From a virus: DNA of 22,302 bases. Under the pieces are notes generated by a model. The model searched no databases. It worked only from the letters and a program-made list of their open reading frames with translations, and was not told the origin of the DNA. Positions 2,995-22,302 of the stretch are shown here, in pieces; within the stretch, counting starts at the first letter, position 1; every line of letters starts with the position of its first letter. Made by a program: the position numbers and the translations under genes. The stretch lies in the IMG/VR virus record IMGVR_UViG_3300025695_000107, positions 1-22,302 of that record, one strand, 5' to 3'.

Positions 2995-3836
2995 TTCCTA
3001 CAGAATACTATGGCGATAATACTCGTTGGTTTATCGCAACGGTTGTTAGTGCTGCTGCGCCTGTTGGATATGAGGGTCGTGTAAAGATTCGTATTCACGG
3101 CATACACAGTGAATCCAATCTGGATATTCCAGAAAAGGATTTGCCGTGGGCTCAGTGTGTTCTACCGACAACCGAAGGTGGTGTGTCTGGTATTGGTCGT
3201 ATTCCTCGTTTGTTGCCGAGTGCGTTGGTATTTGGTTTCTTTGTGGATGGTATCAACTCACAAACACCAATCATTATGGGTTCATTACCACACATCGAAC
3301 TTCCATCAGATATTCAACTGGGTCAACCAGAAGAAGATGTTGGTGAAGAGAAACCAGAAGGTTTCTTCAATAAAGTATCCGCATTCCTTAGTAGTTTTGT
3401 GACCGAAGATATTCGTAATGATGATACGGGCGGTCTTGTAGGAACGATTCTTCGCAACAGACAAAAAGTCTGTATTCAGTTCTTTCTAAATCTTGGATAT
3501 ACAATAAATCAAGCCATTGGTATTACAGCTGGATTGTCTACTTCGAGCAGAATGATGACGGGTCGTGATGGTATCGCAAGTTGGGGAGATGAGAGATACA
3601 AGAACCTTAAAACATTCTCTAATGACTATCTTCTTTTCACAACACAACTACAGTTTGTAGCATATGAGTTGAGAGGTCTTGAGAATGCCGCAAATATTCG
3701 TTTGTTGAATACCGAGAACCTTGAGGGTAGAGATGGGTCTTGTGAGGTATTTGTAAAATACTATCTAAGAGAGAAGAAGAAAGTGTTTGTCAAAAATACT
3801 GAAAGAACTGCGAAACGATTGAAGGATAGATTGTAA
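2991..3836 (+). CDS. 5: gp5-type hub protein: OB-fold domain plus degenerate lysozyme-like domain
   Basis: N-terminal part of the puncturing device, 281 residues. Residues about 10-105 form the gp5/gpV OB-fold: WFIATVVSA, GRVKIRIHGIHS, DLPWAQCVLPT, then the conserved GIGRIPRLLPSALVFGFF and PIIMGSLPH. Residues about 150-240 resemble the phage tail lysozyme family: CIQFFLNLGYTINQAIGIT, IASWGDERYKNL, TTQLQFVAYELRG. In that family a Glu-Ser pair follows the GNL segment; here the aligned residues are Ser185-Ser186, so the catalytic Glu seems lost. The C-terminus is a basic tail (KKKVFVKNTERTAKRLK). There is no spike; that lies two genes downstream. Both ends overlap neighbours (ATGA at the start, TAATG at the end). 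The OB-fold call is strong; the lysozyme relationship is inferred from pattern memory. Confidence 0.8.
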   Translation: MIPTEYYGDNTRWFIATVVSAAAPVGYEGRVKIRIHGIHSESNLDIPEKDLPWAQCVLPTTEGGVSGIGRIPRLLPSALVFGFFVDGINSQTPIIMGSLPHIELPSDIQLGQPEEDVGEEKPEGFFNKVSAFLSSFVTEDIRNDDTGGLVGTILRNRQKVCIQFFLNLGYTINQAIGITAGLSTSSRMMTGRDGIASWGDERYKNLKTFSNDYLLFTTQLQFVAYELRGLENAANIRLLNTENLEGRDGSCEVFVKYYLREKKKVFVKNTERTAKRLKDRL

Positions 3837-6199
3837 TGGCGTTAGATAAAGACGATTTAAATAATGCTCTGAAGAAAGAACAAAGAGTTGCTGTTGTCGG
3901 TGTTCAGAAAAAACAATACAAGTATGTGACGACACAGGGTGTTGACGAAGATGGATTCAGTTATACACTTACTCAGAGAGTCGAGGTAAAACCAGGCGAG
4001 TCTCTATCTTCTGTTGCTGGTAAGACACAGAAACAAGCAGAGGAGACATTCGCGAAGAAAGCAACCAAAGTCGGTAAGGAAGACGGTGAAGTTCTTGGTG
4101 GTGTAAAAAGTCTGGGTAAAGAGAATATCTCACCTAAAGAAGTTACTGACACTTCTGTGGGACAGATTACTGATAAGGTTGGTGGATTAACGGGGACAAA
4201 GACTCCTTCGGCATCTCTTGGTTCTCTCACTGGACTACCTGCACAGGTCGCGGGGGATAAAGCAAAGAGTGGTATTGTCGGTATTGGTTCTGGGTCACCT
4301 ACGGGTGTCGCATCTCTGGTGGCCGCTGGTAAAGATAAAAAAGGAGACCTTGCAACAGAAGTATCAGACTTTGCTACGGGTATTGCTGATGCGGGTGAGT
4401 TGAGTAACATTCAATCGAGTCTTCCCGAAGTTGATTTCGGTGACCTCACAGATACAGTAAAGGATATAAGTCCTATCTCAAGCATCACTGGTAAACTGAG
4501 TGATGTTGTTGATGGTGTTGTAGACGCAACAGGTATTGGTGGATTGACATCAAAAGCGACATCATCTAAGAATGGTCTAAGTTTCTTCAAGGACGCAAAG
4601 AGTCTGGTGTCAAGTTCATTGAGAGATGTGTCATCTGCAATCAAAGATACAAGTAGTGCGATTGACAGATTTACATCAAGTCAAACAAATAAGTTTAATA
4701 AGGGTCTTCAGTCAGGATTTCTTCAAAATGTCAGTGAGACAATCACGGGCGCAGCAAAGGGTTTTATTGCAACTATCGTGCCAGGCGGTGTGTCACTTAA
4801 TGATGATGAGTATGCCGAGACATTTGCACAACTTACAGTAAAAGATGATAACGAGAAAACTAAGGCTGTAAAGAATCTCACTGTAAAATCACCAAATGTC
4901 AGTGATAGAATGAAGGGTGTTGTCAGTAACACAAACGCATCATCCGCAACAGAGTTACAAGAGAAGGTTGTAACAGAGGCAAAGAGACAAGGTATTCCAC
5001 AAGAGGAGATTGATGTTGCGACTGATGAGATTGCCACAATCGATACTGTGGCGAGTCAACTTGATACAACTATTGGTGGAACACTGGTTGTTGATGCAAA
5101 GTTATTTGATGATGGTGTTCCTATTTCGGACAACAACCAGAAATGGTCGGGTCGCACAAGTCCTGATGATGTATTCACCTATGTCTCGTCTGTTGAAGAA
5201 CTTGATACCGAGTTTGCCAAAGTATCGCGTGATGTGACAGAAGTTGTCATTCATGCTACCGAAACATATACCAATAAGAACATCGGTGCTATTGAAATAA
5301 ATAACATTCACAATGAACTAGGACATGATGGTATTGGTTATCACTATGTGATAAGACGTGATGGCAGATTACAACGTGGTCGTCCAGTGAACAGAAAAGG
5401 TGAACATGCGCCAGTCAATGACCATGATACATATTCTATTGGTATTGTTATGGTCGGTGGTCTTGATTCCCCGTCTGGTTCTGCATCACCAAAAAGGTCA
5501 GGACATACATTCACGAGAGCTCAGTTCACTACCCTTGAACGTTTTATTAGTTCTTTCTATCGCAAGTTTCCAGGCGGTCAGGTCTTTGGTCACAATGACA
5601 TTGATGTGAATGAACTCGACCCATATTTTGATGTTGTTGATTATGTTGAATCTATCTTCCGTAAGAAGAATAAGGTTACAGACCCACTCACAAGAGGCCC
5701 ACTCACACCAGTTGAGATTATCAAGGGTGCAACATTTATTCCAAAATCTCAACGACTGGAAGAAAGAGAAGATGTTGCGTTTGAGTTAGAAAATACTGAC
5801 GACATTGAGATTGAAGAGAGACAATCAAATGTATTTGAACGCCCACCGAAACCAGAGGGTTTTCCAAAAGAAGAAGAAGATGGAACAATCTATGATTACG
5901 AATGGGATGATGAGTCTCGTAAATGGGTTCAGTCGATAGACTATTCAAACGTAAAAGAAGAACAAGATGTAAGAGCGGTCTCTGATGTAGAGAAACAGAT
6001 TGCAGGTCTTGAATCAAAAAGAACATACCTACAAACAAGACTTGATAGTGGTAAAGAGACAACAAGGTCAGAGATTTCTCTTGAGGGTAGAATCAAACGT
6101 CTTGACAGACAGATAAACAATCTAAAGAAAACAACAAATGTCAACTCACCAACCACGACTAAAGTATATGGCGTTGAAGACTTTGACGAGGACTTGTAA
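3836..6199 (+). CDS. Hub-associated N-acetylmuramoyl-L-alanine amidase (Amidase_2), 787 aa
   Basis: Probable virion peptidoglycan amidase, taking the place of T4 gp5 lysozyme. Residues about 468-612 match Amidase_2/PGRP: VVIHATET with His473, HNELGHDGIGYHYVIRRDGR, GEHAPVND with His524, YSIGIVMVGG, and GHNDIDVNELDPYFDV with His586 and Asp595. His473, His586 and Asp595 fall where the AmpD-type zinc triad lies; the lysine usually two residues before the Asp is Glu593 here. Residues 1-465 are low-complexity, Ser/Thr/Gly/Lys-rich, with many VGGLTG- and SGSPTG-like turns, perhaps a flexible or fibrous linker. A short PGESLSSVAGKT near residues 53-64 recalls the start of a LysM but is incomplete. 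The C-terminus is acidic (KEEEDGTIYDYEWDDES), then a coiled coil (VEKQIAGLESKRTYLQTRLD). The gene overlaps both neighbours by one base (TAATG), placing it inside the hub operon. Confidence 0.82.
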   Translation: MALDKDDLNNALKKEQRVAVVGVQKKQYKYVTTQGVDEDGFSYTLTQRVEVKPGESLSSVAGKTQKQAEETFAKKATKVGKEDGEVLGGVKSLGKENISPKEVTDTSVGQITDKVGGLTGTKTPSASLGSLTGLPAQVAGDKAKSGIVGIGSGSPTGVASLVAAGKDKKGDLATEVSDFATGIADAGELSNIQSSLPEVDFGDLTDTVKDISPISSITGKLSDVVDGVVDATGIGGLTSKATSSKNGLSFFKDAKSLVSSSLRDVSSAIKDTSSAIDRFTSSQTNKFNKGLQSGFLQNVSETITGAAKGFIATIVPGGVSLNDDEYAETFAQLTVKDDNEKTKAVKNLTVKSPNVSDRMKGVVSNTNASSATELQEKVVTEAKRQGIPQEEIDVATDEIATIDTVASQLDTTIGGTLVVDAKLFDDGVPISDNNQKWSGRTSPDDVFTYVSSVEELDTEFAKVSRDVTEVVIHATETYTNKNIGAIEINNIHNELGHDGIGYHYVIRRDGRLQRGRPVNRKGEHAPVNDHDTYSIGIVMVGGLDSPSGSASPKRSGHTFTRAQFTTLERFISSFYRKFPGGQVFGHNDIDVNELDPYFDVVDYVESIFRKKNKVTDPLTRGPLTPVEIIKGATFIPKSQRLEEREDVAFELENTDDIEIEERQSNVFERPPKPEGFPKEEEDGTIYDYEWDDESRKWVQSIDYSNVKEEQDVRAVSDVEKQIAGLESKRTYLQTRLDSGKETTRSEISLEGRIKRLDRQINNLKKTTNVNSPTTTKVYGVEDFDEDL

Positions 6200-7650
6200 T
6201 GACTACTAAAAAAGATACACTTGAACTGAGAGAAAAAGAACTAGGTTCTGGTCAAGAACTCACGGTTGGTGTGCCAGATAATGGTATGCAGAACGCATCG
6301 GGTGATTTACCCAAACGTGACTACAACTATGGGTCATCACTAAACAAGGTTGCTGTTGGTCAGAAGGTCAACAAACTTTATACGGCTGGCGGCGATGTTG
6401 GTGTTCCTCTGAACATTGCTCCACAGAGACCGTCCCAGTATCCTTGTAATCAGATTGATGAGACACCATCTGGTCATAGTATTGAGTTTGATGATACGCC
6501 AGGCGGTGAACGAGTGATGATTCGTCACCGTAAGGGTGCGGGTATTGAGATGAGAGCAGATGGTTCTGTTGTAATCTCTGCCACAAATAACAAAGTAGAG
6601 GTTACAGGTGGTGACCAAACTGTCATCGTAGAGGGACACGGTAATCTCATCTATAATGGTAATCTGAATCTAAAAGTGTCAGGTGACTTCAATGTAGATG
6701 TTGGTGGCAACTATAATGTCAATGTTGCGGGCAACCAAGTAGAGAACATCAAACGTAATCATAAGACTACTGTAGAAGAGAACTCCCATTATATCACCAA
6801 AGGGACGAAGAACACCAAGACAGTCGGAACACACACTGACATCATGTTAGCAGATAATAATCAGATTGTCAATGGCAATCAACAGAATGTTGTTGAAGGT
6901 AATGTTGACTTCTTCTCGGAAGAAAAGATTTTCATCTCTGGTAAAGAACAGTTTGCGGTCTCTGCAAAAGTTGCGAACATTGCGGCCGCTAAACAAATCT
7001 CTGTATTTGGTCAGAAAGGTGTTATCGGTGGTAAAGAGGTAGACTTCACTGGTAAATCTTATTATGGTAGTAAGGGTGAAGAAGAAGCGGCATCTAATGC
7101 AATCTTTTGGGGAACATTCAAAGGTGTCGCAACAGAAGCGATTCGTTCTGTCAATGCTGATAAAGCGGCATTTGCTGAAGTGGCAGACCTCGCACACTCA
7201 CAGTCATATGGAGAAGCACTCACATCTGGTTCTACAGTTGGTGATACTGCAACATTACACTCATTATCACAAGAAGATATTTCTGGTCAAGACGCACCTA
7301 TCACCCCTGACCTCGTTGTTGACCACACACTCAATGGGTCGTATGCGATTCAGACTGTGGTAGTTGATGCTGATGATGTATTGAAGAATAGTCTAAACAT
7401 AGAAGAGAAATACAACTTTGTTTTCAGAACAACGCCAACGATGCAGGAGATTCGTTCTGCGTTCAGAAATGAAGATTCTAGAAACACTGTGTCTGACCTT
7501 CTTGTATCAGAGGGAAGACTGAATCCAGATTACAAGAACATTGTTCCGCCTGCTATCGGTAGAACTGTGAGTAAGAAGGCATCTTCAAGATATGGTTACA
7601 CACCTATTGGTAATGCACTTGAGAATAGAGGAAAGAGATTTACACCATGA
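6199..7650 (+). CDS. Central spike, gp5 C-terminal beta-helix-like
   Basis: Predicted trimeric cell-puncturing needle. Residues about 90-135 (PSGHSIEFDDTPGGERVMIR and AGIEMRADGSVVISA) are the strands that start VgrG/gp5C spikes. From Val160 the sequence falls into octads of the V-x-G-x5 type seen in T4 gp5C: VSGDFNVD, VGGNYNVN, VAGNQVEN, IKRNHKTT, VEENSHYI, continuing with decay to about residue 255. Unlike T4, where this is the C-terminal part of gp5, it is a separate 483-residue protein. About 200 residues follow the helix, including an Ala-rich segment (SVNADKAAFAEVADLAHSQS) and a more ordered end (NFVFRTTPTMQEIRSAFRN), which is unusual for a spike expected to end in a tip. It starts by TAATG overlap with the amidase gene and has GAGGA upstream. 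Confidence 0.8.
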   Translation: MTTKKDTLELREKELGSGQELTVGVPDNGMQNASGDLPKRDYNYGSSLNKVAVGQKVNKLYTAGGDVGVPLNIAPQRPSQYPCNQIDETPSGHSIEFDDTPGGERVMIRHRKGAGIEMRADGSVVISATNNKVEVTGGDQTVIVEGHGNLIYNGNLNLKVSGDFNVDVGGNYNVNVAGNQVENIKRNHKTTVEENSHYITKGTKNTKTVGTHTDIMLADNNQIVNGNQQNVVEGNVDFFSEEKIFISGKEQFAVSAKVANIAAAKQISVFGQKGVIGGKEVDFTGKSYYGSKGEEEAASNAIFWGTFKGVATEAIRSVNADKAAFAEVADLAHSQSYGEALTSGSTVGDTATLHSLSQEDISGQDAPITPDLVVDHTLNGSYAIQTVVVDADDVLKNSLNIEEKYNFVFRTTPTMQEIRSAFRNEDSRNTVSDLLVSEGRLNPDYKNIVPPAIGRTVSKKASSRYGYTPIGNALENRGKRFTP

Positions 7651-13995: not shown

Positions 13996-16900
13996 ATGGC
14001 CAACACATTTACATCGAATGTATTTTCTTCCACTTATAAGGATGATTTTGTAGATAGTGATAACTATCATCGCATTCTGTTCAACAGTGGTCGTGCGCTA
14101 CAGGCACGAGAACTTACGCAGCTTCAAACAATCATTCAAGAAGAGATTGGTAGATTTGGTCGTAACATCTTTAAAGATGGAGCATCAGTAAATCCAGGCG
14201 GGCCAACAATCACTAACGATTATGAGTTCGTAAAACTCAATACATCCGTCAATACACTACCTGCCACACCAAGTGATTTGGTTGGTGTGGAACTGACTGG
14301 TGGAACATCAACTGTTAAGGCTCGTGTTCTTGAGGTTGTAGAAGCAACAGGTGGCGACCCAGCAACAATCTATGTTCAGTATACAAATACATCAGGTGGT
14401 GCGGTTGGTGCTAACCCTGTTCGTTTTATTGCGGGTGAAGACCTAACTGGTGGTGGTGAAACACTTACCGTTCAAACAACAAACACTGTTGCCAATCCCG
14501 CATTTGGTAGAGGTGCGAAGATTGCGAATGGTGCGGGGGACTTCTTTACTCGTGGCCACTTTGTTTTTGCTCCAGCACAAGAACTTATTCTTTCTAAGTA
14601 TTCACAGAATCCTACAAAGGTTGTTGGTTTCAAAGTAACCGAAGACATTGTAACAGTTGCTGATACAGACGTATTATACGATAACCAAGGTGCGACACCA
14701 AACTTGTCAAGTCCTGGCGCAGACCGTTATCGTATCAAACTCACCCTCACGACTCAAGACCTTGTTGACTCTGACGAAAACTTTATCTTCTTCTGTAATG
14801 TTGTAGATGGTGAAATCGTTGACCAAGTAACAGGCACAGACGATTATAATAAAATCAACGAACTACTTGCGGAAAGAACAAAAGAAGAGTCTGGTAACTA
14901 CATCGCAAAATCATTTGAGGCTGACCTATCTGATTCTGGTGATAATCTAATCATCACGGTATCTGATGGTGTCGCATATGTAAATGGTTATCGTGCGGAA
15001 ACAGAGACTCCAACGAAACTTGTTGTCCCAAAACCTCGTTCTACTGTAACAAACCAAAACGAAGTGGTTGGTATCAACTATGGTCAGTATTTCATCTGTG
15101 ATGTTCTCAAAGGTAATCTGAATGTCTCTGAGTTTGAATCAGTCAATCTGCGTAGTGCGGTCACTCATGGTGGTTCTACTATCGGGACAGCAAAGGTTCG
15201 TTATGTAGAAGAGGATGGTGCGAACTTCCGTGTCTATCTCTTTGACATCAAAATGAACTCAGGTCAAGTCCTGCGTAACGTAAAATCTGTTGGCACAAGC
15301 ACAACTGATTATGCGGACATTCTCCTTGAGAACAGTAAAGCAGTAATCAAAGAATCAACAAAAGTCAATATGGTGTTCGCTACACCAAATCCACGTCCTA
15401 AAAATATCACGGACGATGACTTTGAGGTTCAACGTATTCGCACAGGAACATCAAACGGTTCTGGTTCATTGACCCTTTCATTGGGCGCAACAGGCGAAAC
15501 CTTTGTAAATACAGGTCAGTGGATTGTCACCGATTCTTCGGGTGATGTGGTTGCGTCTCCTTCTATCTCAGGTTCAGGAACGAACTCAGTAGATATTACT
15601 GGTCTACCCAACTCTCAAGCAGTTACGGTATATTCTAAAGTCAACAAAGCACAACCTTCGGTTCGTCAGAAAACTCTGGTTGAAACAACATTCAGTGGTG
15701 CTGTTGAGTCTGATGGTTCAGGCACGAAATATGTTGACCTTCACGCGACAGACATCTATGATGTATTGTCAATCAAACAAACTGACTCAGATGGTTCAGA
15801 CCTCTCAAGTAGATTTACTGTTGACAACGGTCAACGCGCTGGTTACTATGCGAATGGTCGTCTGGTTCTTGATGGTGGTGCTACTGCTCCAAGTGGTTCT
15901 GTATTCACACGATTCAAACACTTCACACATGGTGCTGGTGACTATTTCTCTGTAAACTCATACACTGGTCAGGTTGACTACGAAAACATTCCTTCATTTA
16001 GTATTGGGCCAAGAACATCGGTCAATCTACGTGATGTGATTGACTTCCGTTCATCGGTTGACTCTGATGGCACATTTACTGGTTCTGGTGCTGCTCTCAA
16101 TGAAGTTCCGACAAACGGTGATGTGTTCCAAGGTGACATTGAATACTATCTGCCACGTGCTGATAAAATCGTTGTTACAACACAAGGTGTGGTCAAAAAC
16201 ATCCAAGGTGAGGATGGATTTGCTTCACAGATTCCATCAACACCAGAAAATACACTTTCTCTCTTTGAGTTAGAACACAACGCATATGGTCTGAATGACT
16301 CGGATACGGTTGTCACTCCTGTTGAATCAAAACGTTTCACTATGAGAGACATCTCAAACCTTGAGAAACGTATTGACAAACTCGAAGAAGTGACTTCATT
16401 GTCATTACTTGAAGTTGATACATCTGCTCTGTTGGTTCTAGACTCTGCGGGCAACCCAAGAACAAAATCTGGTTTCTTTGTAGATAACTTTGCGGACAGA
16501 AGTTTCTCTGACGCACAGAACTCAGAGTATCGTGCTGCGATTGACCCGTCAAGAGGTATTCTCCAACCACAGACAGTTGAAGAGAATGTCACTCTGAGAT
16601 ATGACTCAGCCGCATCGTCTAATACGATTCTGAAAGGTGACACAGTATTCCTAAACTACACACATAAAGAAGCAATCACACAGACCAAAGTGTCTGGTGT
16701 AGAGAACGTAAACCCATTTGCGGTTATCACGGGCGAAGGTAACATCACACTTTCTCCTGCTTCGGATGAGTGGTTACAAACCAAGTATTCTCCTGCGAAT
16801 GTTATCAATAAGACTGCTACAGAAGAGTTGTCAGACATCAATGAAGGTAATCTTGCTCTCGGAACTGCGAGACAAAGAGGTTTCAATCAGTGGAGATGGT

Positions 16901-19173
16901 CGGGTATTCCATTTATTCCACTCTTTGGGTTTGGTATCTTTGGTGGTCTAAACCTCTTCGGCGGTTGGGCTGGTGCTGGTCTCTGGAACTGGGGTGGTGT
17001 AACTACTAATAACGACATCACACTGAATAGCACACGCAGAAGTGGTCGTAACATTACTCGTCAGTATTCACAACGTATTGTTGTTGGTAATAGAACTGTT
17101 CGTAAGGTCACTGGTGATAGAACCGTATCCTTGACATTCTTGCCATATATTCGTTCACGTAAAGTATTCTTCCGTGCGGAAGGTATGCGTCCAAATACCA
17201 AATACTTCCCATTCTTTGATGGTGTTGCTGTTGATGACTTTGTTCGTGAAGAATCATTTGATAGATTCTCTAGTTCTACGAATGGCGGCGCGAAGTATGG
17301 TAACGCATACAGAAACTCAACATCTCACCCAGAGGGTTCTTCAGAGTTAGTATCTGATAATAATGGTAAGATTGCGGGTTCATTCTTTATTCCGTCTAAC
17401 TCATCCACACGTTTCCGTGCGGGCACACGTGAGTTCAAACTTCTTGACATTAGTAAGAATGATGATAACGCATCACTGTCACGTGCTTCAATCAACTATG
17501 TCGCACAAGGCACACTGGATACAAGACAGAAGACTGTTACTTCAACTCGTATCACTCAGGTAAGAACACGTAGATGGACAGAGACACAACGAGTTCGTAA
17601 TCGTGACCCACTTGCTCAGTCATTCCGTGTTACCGAACCGAATGGTATGTTCGTAACTAAAGTTCAGACCTACTTCAAAACAAGAGATGATGTGATTCCG
17701 ATTGAACTACAGATTCGTCCGATGGTAAATGGTGCGCCTTCTGCTACTGAAATCATCGGTAATGCTGTGAAGTTCTTGAACACACCATCATCAGAAGTAA
17801 ATCTTCCTGCGTCTCAAACGGCTGCTGGCGTTCTTGCCGCACCTACGACATTTGAGTTTGATGAACCAATCTTCTTGAATCCAAATACCGAATATGCTAT
17901 CGTTCTGTTGGCAGAGTCAACAAACTATGAAGCATATGTTGGTGAAACATACGCATTTGAGTTGGGTTCAACCGAAAAACGTATCAACCGTCAACCTTCT
18001 ATGGGTTCATTGTTCAAGTCACAAAACGGCACGACTTGGGAGCCAGACCAAACGAAAGACCTTGCGTTTAAACTGTTCAAGGCAGAGTTTGATACTGTGG
18101 GTGGTTATGCGGTATTTGAAAACGTTGACCTTGAAGACGAAGCCCTAGAAAACAATCCATTGTATGTTGATAGTGGTGACGCAACAATCACAACAGTTAT
18201 TCCAAGTCACGGTTTTGATGTTGGTGATACAATCACCATTTCAGGTCTTGACTCTGCGACAACTTATAATGGTATTCTAGGAACAAGTATTCTTGGTTCA
18301 AGAACGATTACTGCGGTAGACGGGTTTGGTGTTACCTTTGAAGCAGATAGTTCATCAACATCTGCTGGTCGTTTTGGTGGAACAAGTATTGTAACAGACC
18401 GTCAGGTTCAGTTTGACTTGTGTATTCCAAACTTCACAACACTGATTCCAGATGATACGAATCTGTCATATAGTGCTAAGTTTACAACAGGTAAATCACT
18501 TGCTGCGATTAGTGGTTCACAGGTTCGTTATCAAAAAGACCCATCATATTCATCAGACATTATTATCGGTGACGAGAATGTATTCTCTGCTCCACGTCTG
18601 GTCGCTAAATCTGGTAACGAAACATCAGAACTTGGTGCGGGTGTTCGTTCAACAACATTCAAAGTTGATATGACAACAACTCGTGCGGATGTGTCTCCAA
18701 TCATTGACGCACAAAGAGCATCATTGACTACGATTGGTAATCTGGTTGATAATCAAGCGGCATCGCCAGCAAGTGGTTTCAATGTCCCATTGAACTATGT
18801 TGAAGAGACAACAGCGTTTGGTGGTTCTGCCCTTTCTAAACATATGTCAACCGTATCAGTCCTTGAAGAGGCTGCGGTTGGTCTGAAAGTGATTGTGTCT
18901 GCGATTAGACCAAGTGGTTCAGACTTTGATTTATACTTTAGAACCGCTAACGATGGTGAAGACATCTTTGACATCGACTGGACACTTCAGTCACCAGAAA
19001 CCACGGTTGCTCCAGATGGAAATAACTTCCGTGAGTATCGTTATCTGATTGGTGGTCAGGGTGGTGACGTTGCTGAGTTCACTCAGTATCAATACAAGAT
19101 TGTAATGCGTTCCAATAACTCTTCTGCTGTTCCTGTATTCAAGGACTTTAGGTCAATCGCAATGGCAGTATAA
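13996..19173 (+). CDS. Giant DUF4815-type baseplate/fibre structural protein
   Basis: 1725 residues, the largest protein here. The N-terminus matches the DUF4815 type: YHRILFNSGRALQARELTQL then QTIIQEEIGRFG and FKDGASVNPGGP (residues 23-71). Beta modules follow at about 96-160 and 385-435. SKRFTMRDISNLEKRIDKLE near residues 773-795 is a predicted short coiled coil. A Gly/Trp/Phe-rich hydrophobic patch lies at about 966-1001. A more conserved half follows: VSLTFLPYIRSRKVFFRAEG, RDPLAQSFRVTEPNGMFVTK, ELQIRPMVNGAPSAT and FLNPNTEYAIVLLAES, as in phage proteins with adhesin-like domains. A SHGFDVGDTITISGL module sits near 1404, and the C-terminus (FREYRYLIGG, VPVFKDFRSIAMAV) is beta-sandwich-like. 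Probably a trimeric peripheral baseplate or side-fibre protein. AAGGTAG precedes the ATG. The exact role is not deducible from sequence. Confidence 0.75.
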   Translation: MANTFTSNVFSSTYKDDFVDSDNYHRILFNSGRALQARELTQLQTIIQEEIGRFGRNIFKDGASVNPGGPTITNDYEFVKLNTSVNTLPATPSDLVGVELTGGTSTVKARVLEVVEATGGDPATIYVQYTNTSGGAVGANPVRFIAGEDLTGGGETLTVQTTNTVANPAFGRGAKIANGAGDFFTRGHFVFAPAQELILSKYSQNPTKVVGFKVTEDIVTVADTDVLYDNQGATPNLSSPGADRYRIKLTLTTQDLVDSDENFIFFCNVVDGEIVDQVTGTDDYNKINELLAERTKEESGNYIAKSFEADLSDSGDNLIITVSDGVAYVNGYRAETETPTKLVVPKPRSTVTNQNEVVGINYGQYFICDVLKGNLNVSEFESVNLRSAVTHGGSTIGTAKVRYVEEDGANFRVYLFDIKMNSGQVLRNVKSVGTSTTDYADILLENSKAVIKESTKVNMVFATPNPRPKNITDDDFEVQRIRTGTSNGSGSLTLSLGATGETFVNTGQWIVTDSSGDVVASPSISGSGTNSVDITGLPNSQAVTVYSKVNKAQPSVRQKTLVETTFSGAVESDGSGTKYVDLHATDIYDVLSIKQTDSDGSDLSSRFTVDNGQRAGYYANGRLVLDGGATAPSGSVFTRFKHFTHGAGDYFSVNSYTGQVDYENIPSFSIGPRTSVNLRDVIDFRSSVDSDGTFTGSGAALNEVPTNGDVFQGDIEYYLPRADKIVVTTQGVVKNIQGEDGFASQIPSTPENTLSLFELEHNAYGLNDSDTVVTPVESKRFTMRDISNLEKRIDKLEEVTSLSLLEVDTSALLVLDSAGNPRTKSGFFVDNFADRSFSDAQNSEYRAAIDPSRGILQPQTVEENVTLRYDSAASSNTILKGDTVFLNYTHKEAITQTKVSGVENVNPFAVITGEGNITLSPASDEWLQTKYSPANVINKTATEELSDINEGNLALGTARQRGFNQWRWSGIPFIPLFGFGIFGGLNLFGGWAGAGLWNWGGVTTNNDITLNSTRRSGRNITRQYSQRIVVGNRTVRKVTGDRTVSLTFLPYIRSRKVFFRAEGMRPNTKYFPFFDGVAVDDFVREESFDRFSSSTNGGAKYGNAYRNSTSHPEGSSELVSDNNGKIAGSFFIPSNSSTRFRAGTREFKLLDISKNDDNASLSRASINYVAQGTLDTRQKTVTSTRITQVRTRRWTETQRVRNRDPLAQSFRVTEPNGMFVTKVQTYFKTRDDVIPIELQIRPMVNGAPSATEIIGNAVKFLNTPSSEVNLPASQTAAGVLAAPTTFEFDEPIFLNPNTEYAIVLLAESTNYEAYVGETYAFELGSTEKRINRQPSMGSLFKSQNGTTWEPDQTKDLAFKLFKAEFDTVGGYAVFENVDLEDEALENNPLYVDSGDATITTVIPSHGFDVGDTITISGLDSATTYNGILGTSILGSRTITAVDGFGVTFEADSSSTSAGRFGGTSIVTDRQVQFDLCIPNFTTLIPDDTNLSYSAKFTTGKSLAAISGSQVRYQKDPSYSSDIIIGDENVFSAPRLVAKSGNETSELGAGVRSTTFKVDMTTTRADVSPIIDAQRASLTTIGNLVDNQAASPASGFNVPLNYVEETTAFGGSALSKHMSTVSVLEEAAVGLKVIVSAIRPSGSDFDLYFRTANDGEDIFDIDWTLQSPETTVAPDGNNFREYRYLIGGQGGDVAEFTQYQYKIVMRSNNSSAVPVFKDFRSIAMAV
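16891..16998 (+). other. Sequence for Gly/Trp/Phe-rich hydrophobic segment of the DUF4815 protein
   Basis: Residues about 966-1001 read WRWSGIPFIPLFGFGIFGG, then LNLFGGWAGAGLWNWGG. The stretch has no charged residue after the first Arg and is dominated by Gly, Phe, Trp, Leu and Ile. It lies at the junction between the less conserved N-terminal half and the basic segment RRSGRNITRQYSQR. It resembles an amphipathic or membrane-active segment, but it could equally be a buried hinge of a trimer. Confidence 0.6.
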
Positions 19174-19382
19174 TGAAGAAGAACTTGATTATGGTGGAAG
19201 GTAGCAATGGTCTTGCTCGTGACGTAAATACGGGGGCGATTGTTAATATAAATAAAGAAGAGATTAATGCGGCACGAGAAGCAAAGAAAAGACGAAAGAA
19301 CAAGGATGCGGAGTTCGAACAATTAAAGAATGAAGTTGGTGAAATGAAAGAACTTCTTAACAAACTGGTAGAGAAACTATAA
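19173..19382 (+). CDS. Small coiled-coil protein conserved in type among T4-like marine phages
   Basis: 69 residues. The N-terminal motif GLARDVNTGAIVNINKEEI, reading as a beta hairpin, is followed by a basic stretch (AREAKKRRKNK) and a predicted coiled coil (AEFEQLKNEVGEMKELLNKL, about residues 45-69) with leucines in heptad spacing. No signal peptide or membrane segment. It overlaps the preceding stop and the following start (both TAATG), so it is cotranslated with the giant structural protein and the fibre. Function unknown; a fibre-assembly helper or small trimeric virion part are reasonable guesses. No strong Shine-Dalgarno, so coupling is likely. Confidence 0.65.
   Translation: MKKNLIMVEGSNGLARDVNTGAIVNINKEEINAAREAKKRRKNKDAEFEQLKNEVGEMKELLNKLVEKL
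19247..19254 (+). promoter_or_regulatory. Possible internal late promoter box
   Basis: An exact TATAAATA inside the small coiled-coil gene (codons for Val-Asn-Ile-Asn). If used, transcription would start near 19260 and feed the two fibre genes. It may be coincidental, since AT-rich codons can produce it. Confidence 0.3.
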
Positions 19383-20434
19383 TGGCGACAAGTAAACCAA
19401 CTATTACAAATATCGAAGATACCTTTACCACGCTGGTAAGTAATCTTAATACCGTGTCTCTCGATTTGGGTGCTACGGGTCGATTGACTACGAATGAAGA
19501 TTCTGATGCGATTTCTGCTATCAATGAGTTGGAAGTTGCGGTTCGAGGAACTTCTAACAATCTCGTAGCGACTGATTTAACTGCGGGTGGTCTGACGGCT
19601 ACTGACCTCACCGCCGCTGTTGTTGAACTTGATTCTGATATCGGTGCGAGACCTCACACCAACTTGACGACAACGGCAAAAACACTTACGGGTGCTATCA
19701 ACGAACATGAGACAGACATTGGTTCTATGTCTCTTACAACAACAGCAACCGATTTGACTGCCGCAATCAACGAACACGATGCGGAACTTGGAACGATTAC
19801 ATCTGGTGCGATGGGAACTACTGCTTCAACGGTAAGCGGTGCGATTTCGGAACTGGATAGTGACCGTGATGTTCTGGTTGCGTTTGTTGAACCTACCCAA
19901 GCACTGACAACCACCGCAACCACTGTTGCTGATGCGGTCAATGAGTTGGATGCTGAGATTGGTAGTGAGACACTCACAACAACAGCAACCACACTTGCTG
20001 GTGCTATTAACGAACATGATACCGAAATCGGTTCGGCATCACTCAATACATCTGCGACAACTCTACGTGGCGCAATCAACGAACTCCATACAGAGATTGG
20101 TTCAACAGTTGATTCATCAGGTTCAGGCAACATTGTTGCATCTGATATTGGTGCGTCTCTGAGATTACTAGATAGTTCTGTAGGTAATTTAGACAATCTG
20201 ACCTCAACGATTGCAGACCAATCTACACTTGTTGCCGCTATCAACTCAAACAAAGCGGCGATTGACCTTTTGGATTCTGATGGTGTTGTTGTCAATCAAA
20301 CACTTGGTTCTCTGAATCTACTTGACTCCGATGGGTTTGTTGGTTCGGAAAGAGATAACTTTGTAAATGCACTCAACGCATTAAGGGCAGACATACCACT
20401 GATATTTGATGAAAACGGCACACAACTGAACTAA
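19382..20434 (+). CDS. Repetitive trimeric fibre protein
   Basis: 350 residues, low in aromatic residues and with no Cys or Trp. From about residue 35 to 250 it consists of imperfect units of about 20-30 residues with the core LTTTATTLAGAINEHDTEIG: examples are TTNEDSDAISAINELEVAV, LTTTATDLTAAINEHDAELG, LTTTATTVADAVNELDAEIG and LNTSATTLRGAINELHTEIG. Each unit has a Thr-rich turn and an amphipathic helix with Ala/Ile/Leu in heptad-like spacing, as expected for a segmented trimeric coiled coil like fibritin or tail-fibre shafts. The C-terminal 80 residues repeat LLDSDG three times and end ADIPLIFDENGTQLN. It lies between a small coiled-coil gene and the terminal fibre gene, so a whisker or fibre-shaft role is likely. 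The ribosome site is weak; it overlaps the preceding gene by one base. Confidence 0.7.
   Translation: MATSKPTITNIEDTFTTLVSNLNTVSLDLGATGRLTTNEDSDAISAINELEVAVRGTSNNLVATDLTAGGLTATDLTAAVVELDSDIGARPHTNLTTTAKTLTGAINEHETDIGSMSLTTTATDLTAAINEHDAELGTITSGAMGTTASTVSGAISELDSDRDVLVAFVEPTQALTTTATTVADAVNELDAEIGSETLTTTATTLAGAINEHDTEIGSASLNTSATTLRGAINELHTEIGSTVDSSGSGNIVASDIGASLRLLDSSVGNLDNLTSTIADQSTLVAAINSNKAAIDLLDSDGVVVNQTLGSLNLLDSDGFVGSERDNFVNALNALRADIPLIFDENGTQLN
19732..20098 (+). repeat. Coding repeat cluster in the fibre shaft gene
   Basis: The best-preserved units encode TTTAT-x-L-x-x-AINEHD. The DNA around 19735-19790 and 19975-20030 is strongly similar and offset by exactly 240 bases (80 codons); both begin ACAACAACAGCAACC. 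The intervening units have diverged in sequence and length. Confidence 0.7.
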
Positions 20435-20446
20435 GGGCAATATAAA

Positions 20447-22302
20447 ATGGCTATAGGAGTTCCACTAAAACTCAAAGACAGTGCCGATTATCAGGATTTT
20501 ACATCAACCGAAGAAAATTATCTTGCATATCAAATTGGCGAATATCTTATCACTGGGGACAGTTCCAGTGTAGGTTCTCTTGCGCTTGATTCAAATGGTT
20601 CTAACCTACTAATCGGTAACTTCACAGACACCTCATATGATTCCGCAGTAGGAACAGGTGGGGACGGTTCATTCCTAACATTCACGACAGTCACCACACC
20701 TCTGAGAACAACTCTAGGAACATTGACAGTCGTTGATAGTGACTATCGTATTCCAATCTATCAATATGACAGTGATGGTCAAAAGATTATTCAAGAAGCC
20801 AAAGATTCGGACTTGACTGTTCTGGTTGACCGATTAAACTCTCGTATCTTTACATCTGATTATCTAGGTTCATATCGTCTTGGTTCAGCACCACCAAGCG
20901 GTGATTACACATTGAAACTCAATGATGTGATGACAGATACAAGAACCGATGGTAATTCTCTTCAGTATAACATCTATCAAAGAACAACTCAGACATCACC
21001 AACAAAGGTTCTTCCATTTTCAGTAAAAAGGTCAAATGGAGACAGTGGGGACTATCAAGGTCTTCAGTTGATGACCGACAGACAGATTCAACAGAGTCTC
21101 GGTCTGAAAGCAAGAAATAGACTTGGTGAATATTCAGATAACATTGGTAACTACAGACTTCTCAGTTCTGCCGCAGGAACACCAACGGATGTTGGTTTAT
21201 CAGGAACTTGGGCATCACGAGGAACTGCTACAGATACTCGTCAGGCAATTGTTGATGCTAACTATACCAGAGGTCGTGTATCAACATATTCACGTTTGAG
21301 AGAGTCTAACTTTACTGACACATATACAAGAACTCGTTCAAGTGCTTACTCAGCAGATTATACAACGACTCGTTCAAGCGCATATACCGCAAACTATGTG
21401 ACGACACGGACAAGCAACTACTCACTCGGTTTTGTTGGTAACTATATCGGTAACTTTACCAGAACTCGTCAAACAGACTTTACCAGAACTCGTAATTCTA
21501 CATTTGATTATGTGGGTAACTATGTCGGGGACTTTACGGGCAACTATTCCAGATTGTTAGGATTTACGGGTAACTTTACTGGGAACTATGTGGGTGCGCA
21601 GAATTATTCTATACCATCAGATTCCACATTCACATATGATGTTACCATACCTGGCGGCAGCACAACCCCTACCAGAATATATACCTTTGAATTTAATGGT
21701 ATTCAGACCAACCCCGCCGACAGTGTAGATATTTGGTGGAATGGTGTGAGGGTTGTTAATGGTTTTCCTATCCCAGAGGCCCAGCGAGTTCCAGCTAATA
21801 GTCAAACAACAACATTTAATTCAGTGACATCAGGTGGTTATACTTATTACAGAGGGCCTTTTAGAGCAAGTGACAGATTTGGCACGTTCAACATCGACCG
21901 CGGCGATTTCTTTGAAATTAGACGAACAAGAGTAGGAGAAGTTGCCTTTACCAGAGATTCAACCAGAAACTCACTCAGAACTTCAACTTACACCAGAAAC
22001 TCCACACAGGACTTCCTTGGTAACTATACACGGACTTTAACATATACTGGTAACTACACTGGTGATTTCTTAGGTGAATATACATCGGACTTTACAAGAA
22101 CAACTCCCGATGATTTTACAAGAGTTTTCATAGGTAACTATACTGGTGAGTTTACAAGAAATCGTGCGTCAACATATACAAGAACTCGCGGTAGCACATA
22201 TATTGGTAACTATATTGGTAACTTTACGGGTGACTTTACGGGTAACTATGTGGGGAACTATGCGGGGAACTTTATAGGGAACTATGTTGGTGGTGCTACT
22301 TC
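20447..22302 (+). CDS. Tail-fibre protein with tetrapeptide aromatic-x-Gly-Asn repeats, 3' partial
   Basis: The frame opens at ATG 20447, 12 bases after the previous stop, with AAGGG upstream, and stays open for 618 codons to the window edge. The N-terminus (MAIGVPLKLKDSADYQDFTS then TEENYLAYQIGEYL) is of the sort found in terminal structural genes of T4-like marine phages and probably anchors the protein. Residues 1-260 are otherwise beta-rich and unrecognised. Residues 273-383 are a repeat block of four-residue units (FVGN, YIGN, YVGD, FTGN) and eight-residue units (YTRTRSSA, FTRTRQTD, FTRTRNST). Residues about 384-500 are a non-repetitive domain (VDIWWNGVRVVNGFPIP, GDFFEIRRTRVGE). From Phe501 a second repeat block runs to the edge. 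Probably a host-contact or side fibre. Repeat fold and true length are unknown. Confidence 0.8.
   Translation, partial: MAIGVPLKLKDSADYQDFTSTEENYLAYQIGEYLITGDSSSVGSLALDSNGSNLLIGNFTDTSYDSAVGTGGDGSFLTFTTVTTPLRTTLGTLTVVDSDYRIPIYQYDSDGQKIIQEAKDSDLTVLVDRLNSRIFTSDYLGSYRLGSAPPSGDYTLKLNDVMTDTRTDGNSLQYNIYQRTTQTSPTKVLPFSVKRSNGDSGDYQGLQLMTDRQIQQSLGLKARNRLGEYSDNIGNYRLLSSAAGTPTDVGLSGTWASRGTATDTRQAIVDANYTRGRVSTYSRLRESNFTDTYTRTRSSAYSADYTTTRSSAYTANYVTTRTSNYSLGFVGNYIGNFTRTRQTDFTRTRNSTFDYVGNYVGDFTGNYSRLLGFTGNFTGNYVGAQNYSIPSDSTFTYDVTIPGGSTTPTRIYTFEFNGIQTNPADSVDIWWNGVRVVNGFPIPEAQRVPANSQTTTFNSVTSGGYTYYRGPFRASDRFGTFNIDRGDFFEIRRTRVGEVAFTRDSTRNSLRTSTYTRNSTQDFLGNYTRTLTYTGNYTGDFLGEYTSDFTRTTPDDFTRVFIGNYTGEFTRNRASTYTRTRGSTYIGNYIGNFTGDFTGNYVGNYAGNFIGNYVGGAT
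21263..21595 (+). repeat. First aromatic-x-Gly-Asn / TRTR repeat block
   Basis: Encodes residues 273-383. From Tyr273 to Phe353, successive repeat-position aromatics are 4 or 8 residues apart: 273, 281, 289, 293, 301, 305, 313, 317, 325, 329, 333, 337, 345, 353. A register shift of two follows (Tyr355), after which 355, 359, 363 and 367, then 373, 377 and 381 keep the four-residue step. Codons vary between units, so the repeat is kept at the protein level. Confidence 0.9.
21596..21946 (+). other. Segment encoding a non-repetitive domain inserted in the repeat shaft
   Basis: Encodes about residues 384-500 between the two repeat blocks. The sequence looks globular and beta-rich (IYTFEFNGIQ, VDIWWNGVRV, YTYYRGPFRASDRFGTF). 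Codon choice differs from neighbours, with AACCCCGCC, GAGGCCCAG, GTGAGG and several ATA codons, most of them uncommon elsewhere in the window. It may be a knob or lectin-like domain; no family recognised. Confidence 0.6.
21947..22302 (+). repeat. Second aromatic-x-Gly-Asn repeat block, continues past window
   Basis: Encodes residues 501-618. After an irregular start, the units from Tyr533 onward are four or eight residues long: YTGN, YTGD, FLGE, YTSD, FTRTTPDD, FTRV, FIGN, YTGE, FTRNRAST, YTRTRGST, then nine tetrads in a row from Tyr585 (YIGN, YIGN, FTGD, FTGN, YVGN, YAGN, FIGN, YVGG and on). At DNA level this end is an imperfect 12-base repeat using both GGT and GGG for the glycine. Confidence 0.9.

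Follow-up and report, generated by a model that had tools for sequence, protein, structure and literature searches.

The terminal ORF encodes a tail fibre protein

The 22,302-base viral contig fragment analysed here (the window) ends in an ORF that places an aromatic residue at every fourth position over long stretches. The ORF (20447..22300, + strand) is the last in the window and open at the contig end after 618 residues. Residues 1-230 (20447..21136, +) form a folded N-terminal domain, predicted by AlphaFold2 mostly at pLDDT 70-92, and two of its modules of ~70 residues are related to each other. Further on lie repeat tract 1 (residues 273-383; 21263..21595, +), built of [YF]-x-[GR]-[NDT] units, a non-repetitive insert separating the tracts (residues 384-500; 21596..21946, +) and repeat tract 2 (residues 501-616; 21947..22294, +), which is cut by the contig end.

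The upstream neighbour (19382..20434, +) encodes a tail-fibre-like protein (phrog_25848, E 6e-11). This protein is itself made of a repeat of ~21-23 residues, LTTTAxTLxGAINExxxEIG; the equivalent place in locus L005 holds DUF2345 and DUF5649 repeats instead. A VrlC-type baseplate protein (13996..19173, +; phrog_358) and a gp8-type baseplate wedge match are also found upstream of the fibre ORF. In pelagimyophages and cyanomyophages the fibre genes come after VrlC, in the host-recognition cluster (PMC7029224), and the tract ORF has the position expected of a T4-like cluster of this kind, downstream of a VrlC gene and a fibre-like gene. Its identification as a fibre protein in an earlier sequence-only reading is supported.

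Register of the aromatic residues in the window

That reading had placed the aromatics at multiples of four over residues 273-353 and, after early shifts, over residues 533-613, and a comparison with 20,000 shuffles confirmed this. Every aromatic within residues 273-353 is at a multiple of four, residues 355-367 are offset by +2 and residues 373-381 are in phase again; in tract 2, residue 501 and residues 533-613 are in phase and residues 515-527 are offset by 2. The best mod-4 phase contains 17 of 21 aromatics in tract 1 and 19 of 22 in tract 2, values reached by none of the shuffles. Since every departure from phase is exactly 2, all 43 window aromatics are on one parity. The arginine unit does fill exactly two steps, as had been described, with Arg at positions 3 and 5.

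The tract probably grew by DNA duplication and then diverged. TRF detected only short 12- and 36-bp arrays in the tract DNA of the window, at 78-84% match. The persistence of these weak repeats would agree with a selfish 12-bp DNA minisatellite that happens to be read in frame, the protein being unselected, and cellular genomes do contain 12-bp minisatellites that match the pattern, apparently as near-perfect copies. The tract units, however, are strongly diverged and differ in their codons, and both the register and single unit positions are kept among homologues that have 50-76% identity with the first row of the alignment, so that we regard a minisatellite origin of this kind as highly improbable. 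Among the best 30 matches listed in a DNA-pattern scan of cellular genomes there was no diverged tract; these were minisatellites with simple 12-bp units or scattered short matches. The codons had been called varied, which holds for Thr, Gly and Arg but not for Asn, encoded by AAC in 91% of cases in the tract versus 45% elsewhere.

The tract defines a family of fibre proteins

Scans of IMG/VR, one by N-terminal profile and one by DNA pattern, yielded at least 200 loci. These contain at least 189 distinct ORFs, which were thinned to 152 proteins, the longest of 3347 aa. The register of the window is shared by more than 150 related viral-contig proteins. The relatives span 370-3347 aa, with ...ETYTLYVRTA or ...TIKLWVRTA as the usual ending; the C terminus of the 151 complete tract ORFs is of the (T/Y)TLY type in 112 and of the xLW type in 33. 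Tract genes often occur in tandem pairs. In locus L005 (8367-15401) the motif YSRFSPNYGGGGVWIDY is found several times within a tract protein of 2344 aa.

When the window protein was used in a tblastn search of 50,697 phage genomes, the sole match was Phage C48C1 (OQ984149). Its 3347-aa hypothetical protein is a direct homologue (33% identity, 95% coverage) followed by the same downstream genes as in the tract family, but it is far longer than the window protein and is encoded by a single gene as opposed to the frequent tandem pair. Two relatives used as queries on the same collection added just weak matches, most of them in an aliphatic tract present in S-RIM2 phages; as BLAST masks low complexity, the collection may hold more tract phages. 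The fibre regions of HTVC008M, Mosig and Melnitz were searched and are without the tract. No convincing match to the fibre protein was obtained by sequence search in Pfam, PHROG or PDB, a PDB search with the window tract returned just Tektin-3 (E 0.59), and a literature search retrieved nothing describing the tract repeat or Phage C48C1. The tract represents a repeat family that is real, conserved and uncatalogued, carried by the tail fibres of T4-like phages from aquatic habitats. The sequence-only reading, which placed similar tracts in other marine T4-like phages, is supported on this point, and the register is kept in the homologues.

Phage host range is decided by tail fibres. The fibre genes of marine T4-like phages often go unrecognised, and conserved but divergent tail fibre proteins could not be identified in one study (PMC7029224); the tract gives a recognisable fibre family.

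Repeat grammar and the two faces of the tract

In the four-residue units of the family, position 1 is Y (56%) or F (43%), position 2 is T, A, V or S, with V, I and T together accounting for about half, position 3 is G (65%) or R (20%) and position 4 is N (44%), D (21%) or T (10%), whereas the eight-residue units read [YF]-x-R-x-R-x-[ST]-x. Y or F occupies 5,067 of 5,110 clock positions flanked by two units (99%), and the remaining residues are R (21), S (16), T (3), W (2) and V (1), with zero L, I or M. Tyr preceding position 3 favours Arg there (odds ratio 6.3, exceeding 1 in 86 of 89 proteins), and Phe is usually the next aromatic to follow Arg.

Where clean blocks are at most 16 residues apart, the gap between them modulo 4 is 0 in 243 cases, 2 in 217, 1 in 49 and 3 in 19, which makes 460 of 528 slips even. 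Because of these even slips, the tracts were tested for a two-face parity. Over 58,856 residues, the share located on the parity of the aromatics is 98% for R, 93% for Y, 92% for F and 87% for G; on the opposite parity are 94% of N, 93% of D, 89% of T, 87% each of V and I, and 80% of A. One clean block extends over 584 residues and is free of slips. Homologues align in register, many individual unit positions are invariant, and the indels between them in the tract are multiples of 4 in 187 cases, 2 mod 4 in 101 and odd in 31, counts in which the aligner may favour in-register gaps. No proof was obtained of a persistent 8- or 12-residue superperiod, and DNA duplications may account for part of the peaks at lags 8, 12 and 24.

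The four-residue clock of the sequence-only reading thus stands as a register, but its base is a step of two residues, with even slips and two faces. Even slips together with the strict alternation, Gly on the aromatic side and Asn opposite, imply such a two-residue clock and point to extended beta strands, of which the face split would be the signature. The proposed selection on a regular fold is borne out by the register kept in homologues and by the even-numbered indels, whereas a Gly-Asn turn in each unit does not agree with the two-residue slips and the alternation of faces. Binding of polyanionic glycans by the arginine units, suggested earlier, would be permitted by the location of 98% of Arg on the aromatic face.

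Structure prediction and a model of the shaft

Monomer predictions with AlphaFold2 yielded no fold for the tracts: the pLDDT of the tract was within 25-36 for the window protein with 19 alignment rows, and 26 for a clean 451-aa tract with 13 homologues. A Foldseek search of the AlphaFold model against PDB and BFVD gave nothing with E <0.1 and VIA gave a best Z of 2.4; most of this model is of low confidence, so the absence of a structural match does not establish a new fold. In line with the earlier statement that no structure has been described, none was located by the PDB, Foldseek, VIA or literature searches.

A pLDDT below 36 is also what an intrinsically disordered chain would give, in which Tyr/Phe and Arg are stickers and Gly, Asn, Thr and Ser spacers of an adhesive gel-like fibre. 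The composition fits, as do the exchange of Tyr and Phe and the near absence of aliphatics at the clock position. However, a flexible chain leaves the even-only slips, the two-face split and the 584-residue register without a reason, and V, I and T at about half of unit position 2 also argue against it; we consider disorder unlikely. A monomeric beta solenoid with a turn or face per four residues and Gly-Asn turns would explain the regular step and the frequent G-N/D at unit positions 3-4, yet slips of two residues would disrupt the arrangement of one face per unit, and AlphaFold2, which is often able to recognise monomeric solenoids, gave none in two attempts. A solenoid is accordingly judged very unlikely.

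The reading towards which we lean is that the tract builds a tail fibre shaft with a beta structure, which is probably a trimer and which operon partners may glycosylate or hydroxylate. This shaft would belong to a long fibre attached to the baseplate, where the folded N-terminal domain would bind the VrlC-type baseplate; the conserved C-terminal tail would terminate the shaft or bring about its trimerisation. Each chain would consist of extended beta strands whose residues point alternately to two sides, one with the aromatics together with G, R and S, the other with the small or polar residues T, V, A, N and D, and three chains would most likely wrap together into a slender beta-structured fibre comparable to other phage fibre shafts. 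A four-residue step would present one Tyr or Phe and, two residues on, Gly, or Arg after Tyr, and the length of the shaft may change by whole steps gained or lost, mostly in multiples of 4 residues. The tract grammar provides a basis for building and testing such a shaft model.

Comparison with known repeat proteins

The nearest analogue, as an analogy only, is the triple-stranded beta-helix of T4 gp5 and VgrG with its VxGxxxxx octads (PDB 3a1m, 4ku0). As in gp5, Gly is found two residues past a hydrophobic residue and is followed by N or D, and the faces alternate; gp5 is a slender trimeric fibre, as the tract would be if it trimerises, and its surface carries an N/D ladder (PMC4576200). Unlike gp5, the tract has a period of 4 rather than 8, strictly Tyr/Phe rather than Val, Arg-rich units and lengths of up to ~3,300 aa. 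The octapeptide VxGxxxxx itself is not the tract unit, which has 4 or 8 residues with Y/F, and almost never V, at the clock position. The window encodes its own gp5-type baseplate protein (6199-7650), with the needle-region octads YNGNLNLK, VSGDFNVD, VGGNYNVN and VAGNQVEN, and hhalign between this protein and the tract gave a probability of 0.3%. A 787-aa protein of the same baseplate region (3836-6199) contains a stretch which we take to resemble an N-acetylmuramoyl-amidase/PGRP domain.

The structural protein phrog_697 of the Synechococcus phage S-RIM2 (L207, 8787-9329), an isolated T4-like cyanophage and a relative, contains [VL]TGN repeats, which share the four-residue step and x-G-N with the tract and are weakly matched by gp5-type needles. 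In contrast to the tract family, its clock residue is aliphatic, Arg units are few or lacking, and the locus has no match to the downstream genes described below. As the sequence-only reading had stated, neither the RTX nor the pentapeptide period fits: aromatic spacings of 4, 8 and 12 dominate over the family, unlike the RTX beta-roll nonapeptide GGxGxDxUx, and the spacing of 5 expected for pentapeptide repeats, A(D/N)LxX, is rare (684 occurrences versus 10,365 at 4).

Genes linked to the tract ORF

The last tract ORF is followed on its 3' side by a gene for a ~155-aa protein, a DxD glycosyltransferase (GT)-like gene and a gene for a 224-aa protein, in this order. The GT follows the tract ORF in 77 of 82 loci with enough sequence, at a median distance of 506 bp (5-95%: 447-584), and the 224-aa gene does so in 68 of 72. 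In the reverse search, a tract ORF was found upstream of the GT in 52 of 53 distinct loci and upstream of the 224-aa gene in 49 of 51. More than 300 viral-contig stretches encode the GT-like protein and more than 300 the 224-aa protein. Among the 50,697 phage genomes each matches only C48C1, also the sole genome found with the aromatic tract. The window is cut before these genes, and their presence in its own phage is thus a prediction. These co-inherited downstream genes are new here, as are the two-residue clock with two faces and the Y/F-strict clock position. In locus L485 (2437-3702) an extra gene of ~420 aa, of no known family, takes the place of the tract gene before the ~155-aa gene, and the same replacement is found in locus L413.

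In the GT-like protein the DxD motif expected of GT-A glycosyltransferases (D83 and D85) is invariant in 16 sequences, and the protein weakly matches Pfam Glycos_transf_2 (best E 0.0014, under the curated cut-off). The 224-aa protein has an invariant WHNNANA as well as a later invariant H and R. It deviates from the HxD/E...H...R of 2OG-Fe(II) oxygenases in having HxN, the acid being replaced by Asn, although a protein of HTVC008M annotated as such an oxygenase shares YPPGxGFxxWH with it (hhalign probability 41%); the likeness to annotated phage 2OG oxygenases is of motif length only. A search of 563 cellular genomes of two classes with this putative oxygenase gave one weak match.

The grammar suggests two-faced beta strands, and the co-inherited gene set suggests modification, its members being candidate modifying enzymes in genetic linkage with the tract. 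The fibre is the most likely target of the ~155-aa protein, the GT-like protein and the putative oxygenase, which would serve in its assembly and would glycosylate and hydroxylate Tyr, Thr or Asn/Asp. Such modification, if real, bears on host binding and stability of the fibre. The main rival is that the GT- and oxygenase-like proteins have their targets on the host surface, altered for instance to keep out other phages, and that their linkage to the tract results only from a shared host-recognition cluster; pelagimyophage clusters contain glycosyltransferases thought to act in this way (PMC7029224), and paralogues of the oxygenase elsewhere in C48C1 mean that its substrate need not be the fibre. 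Against this stand the fixed order and the tight spacing (the 506-bp median) over GT identities down to 35%, and the lack of a match to either gene in the loci of HTVC008M, Mosig, Melnitz and S-RIM2 that were tested. We regard a target on the host surface as possible but not probable.

Collagen combines a short strict Gly-X-Y repeat, folded as a polyproline helix, with its own hydroxylases and glycosyltransferases. Should the partner gene products modify the fibre, the tract would resemble it in having a short strict repeat and modifying enzymes, but it lacks the Gly-X-Y triplet, its strands would be beta and not a polyproline helix, and the enzyme activities are putative. We tentatively raise the idea that such phage fibres form a class of their own, in which a beta-fibre of aromatic tetrads, up to several thousand residues long, receives hydroxyl groups and sugars from phage enzymes dedicated to it and inherited with it. 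The logic would be collagen-like and the fold a different one.

The putative oxygenase family has two more members in C48C1 (L507), at 17798-18920 and 40130-40804, one directly after a tail-tube gene and one two genes after a DnaB-like helicase. The same genome encodes a nucleotide-sugar epimerase and a UDP-glucose dehydrogenase (35326-37226), which could supply a donor for the linked GT.
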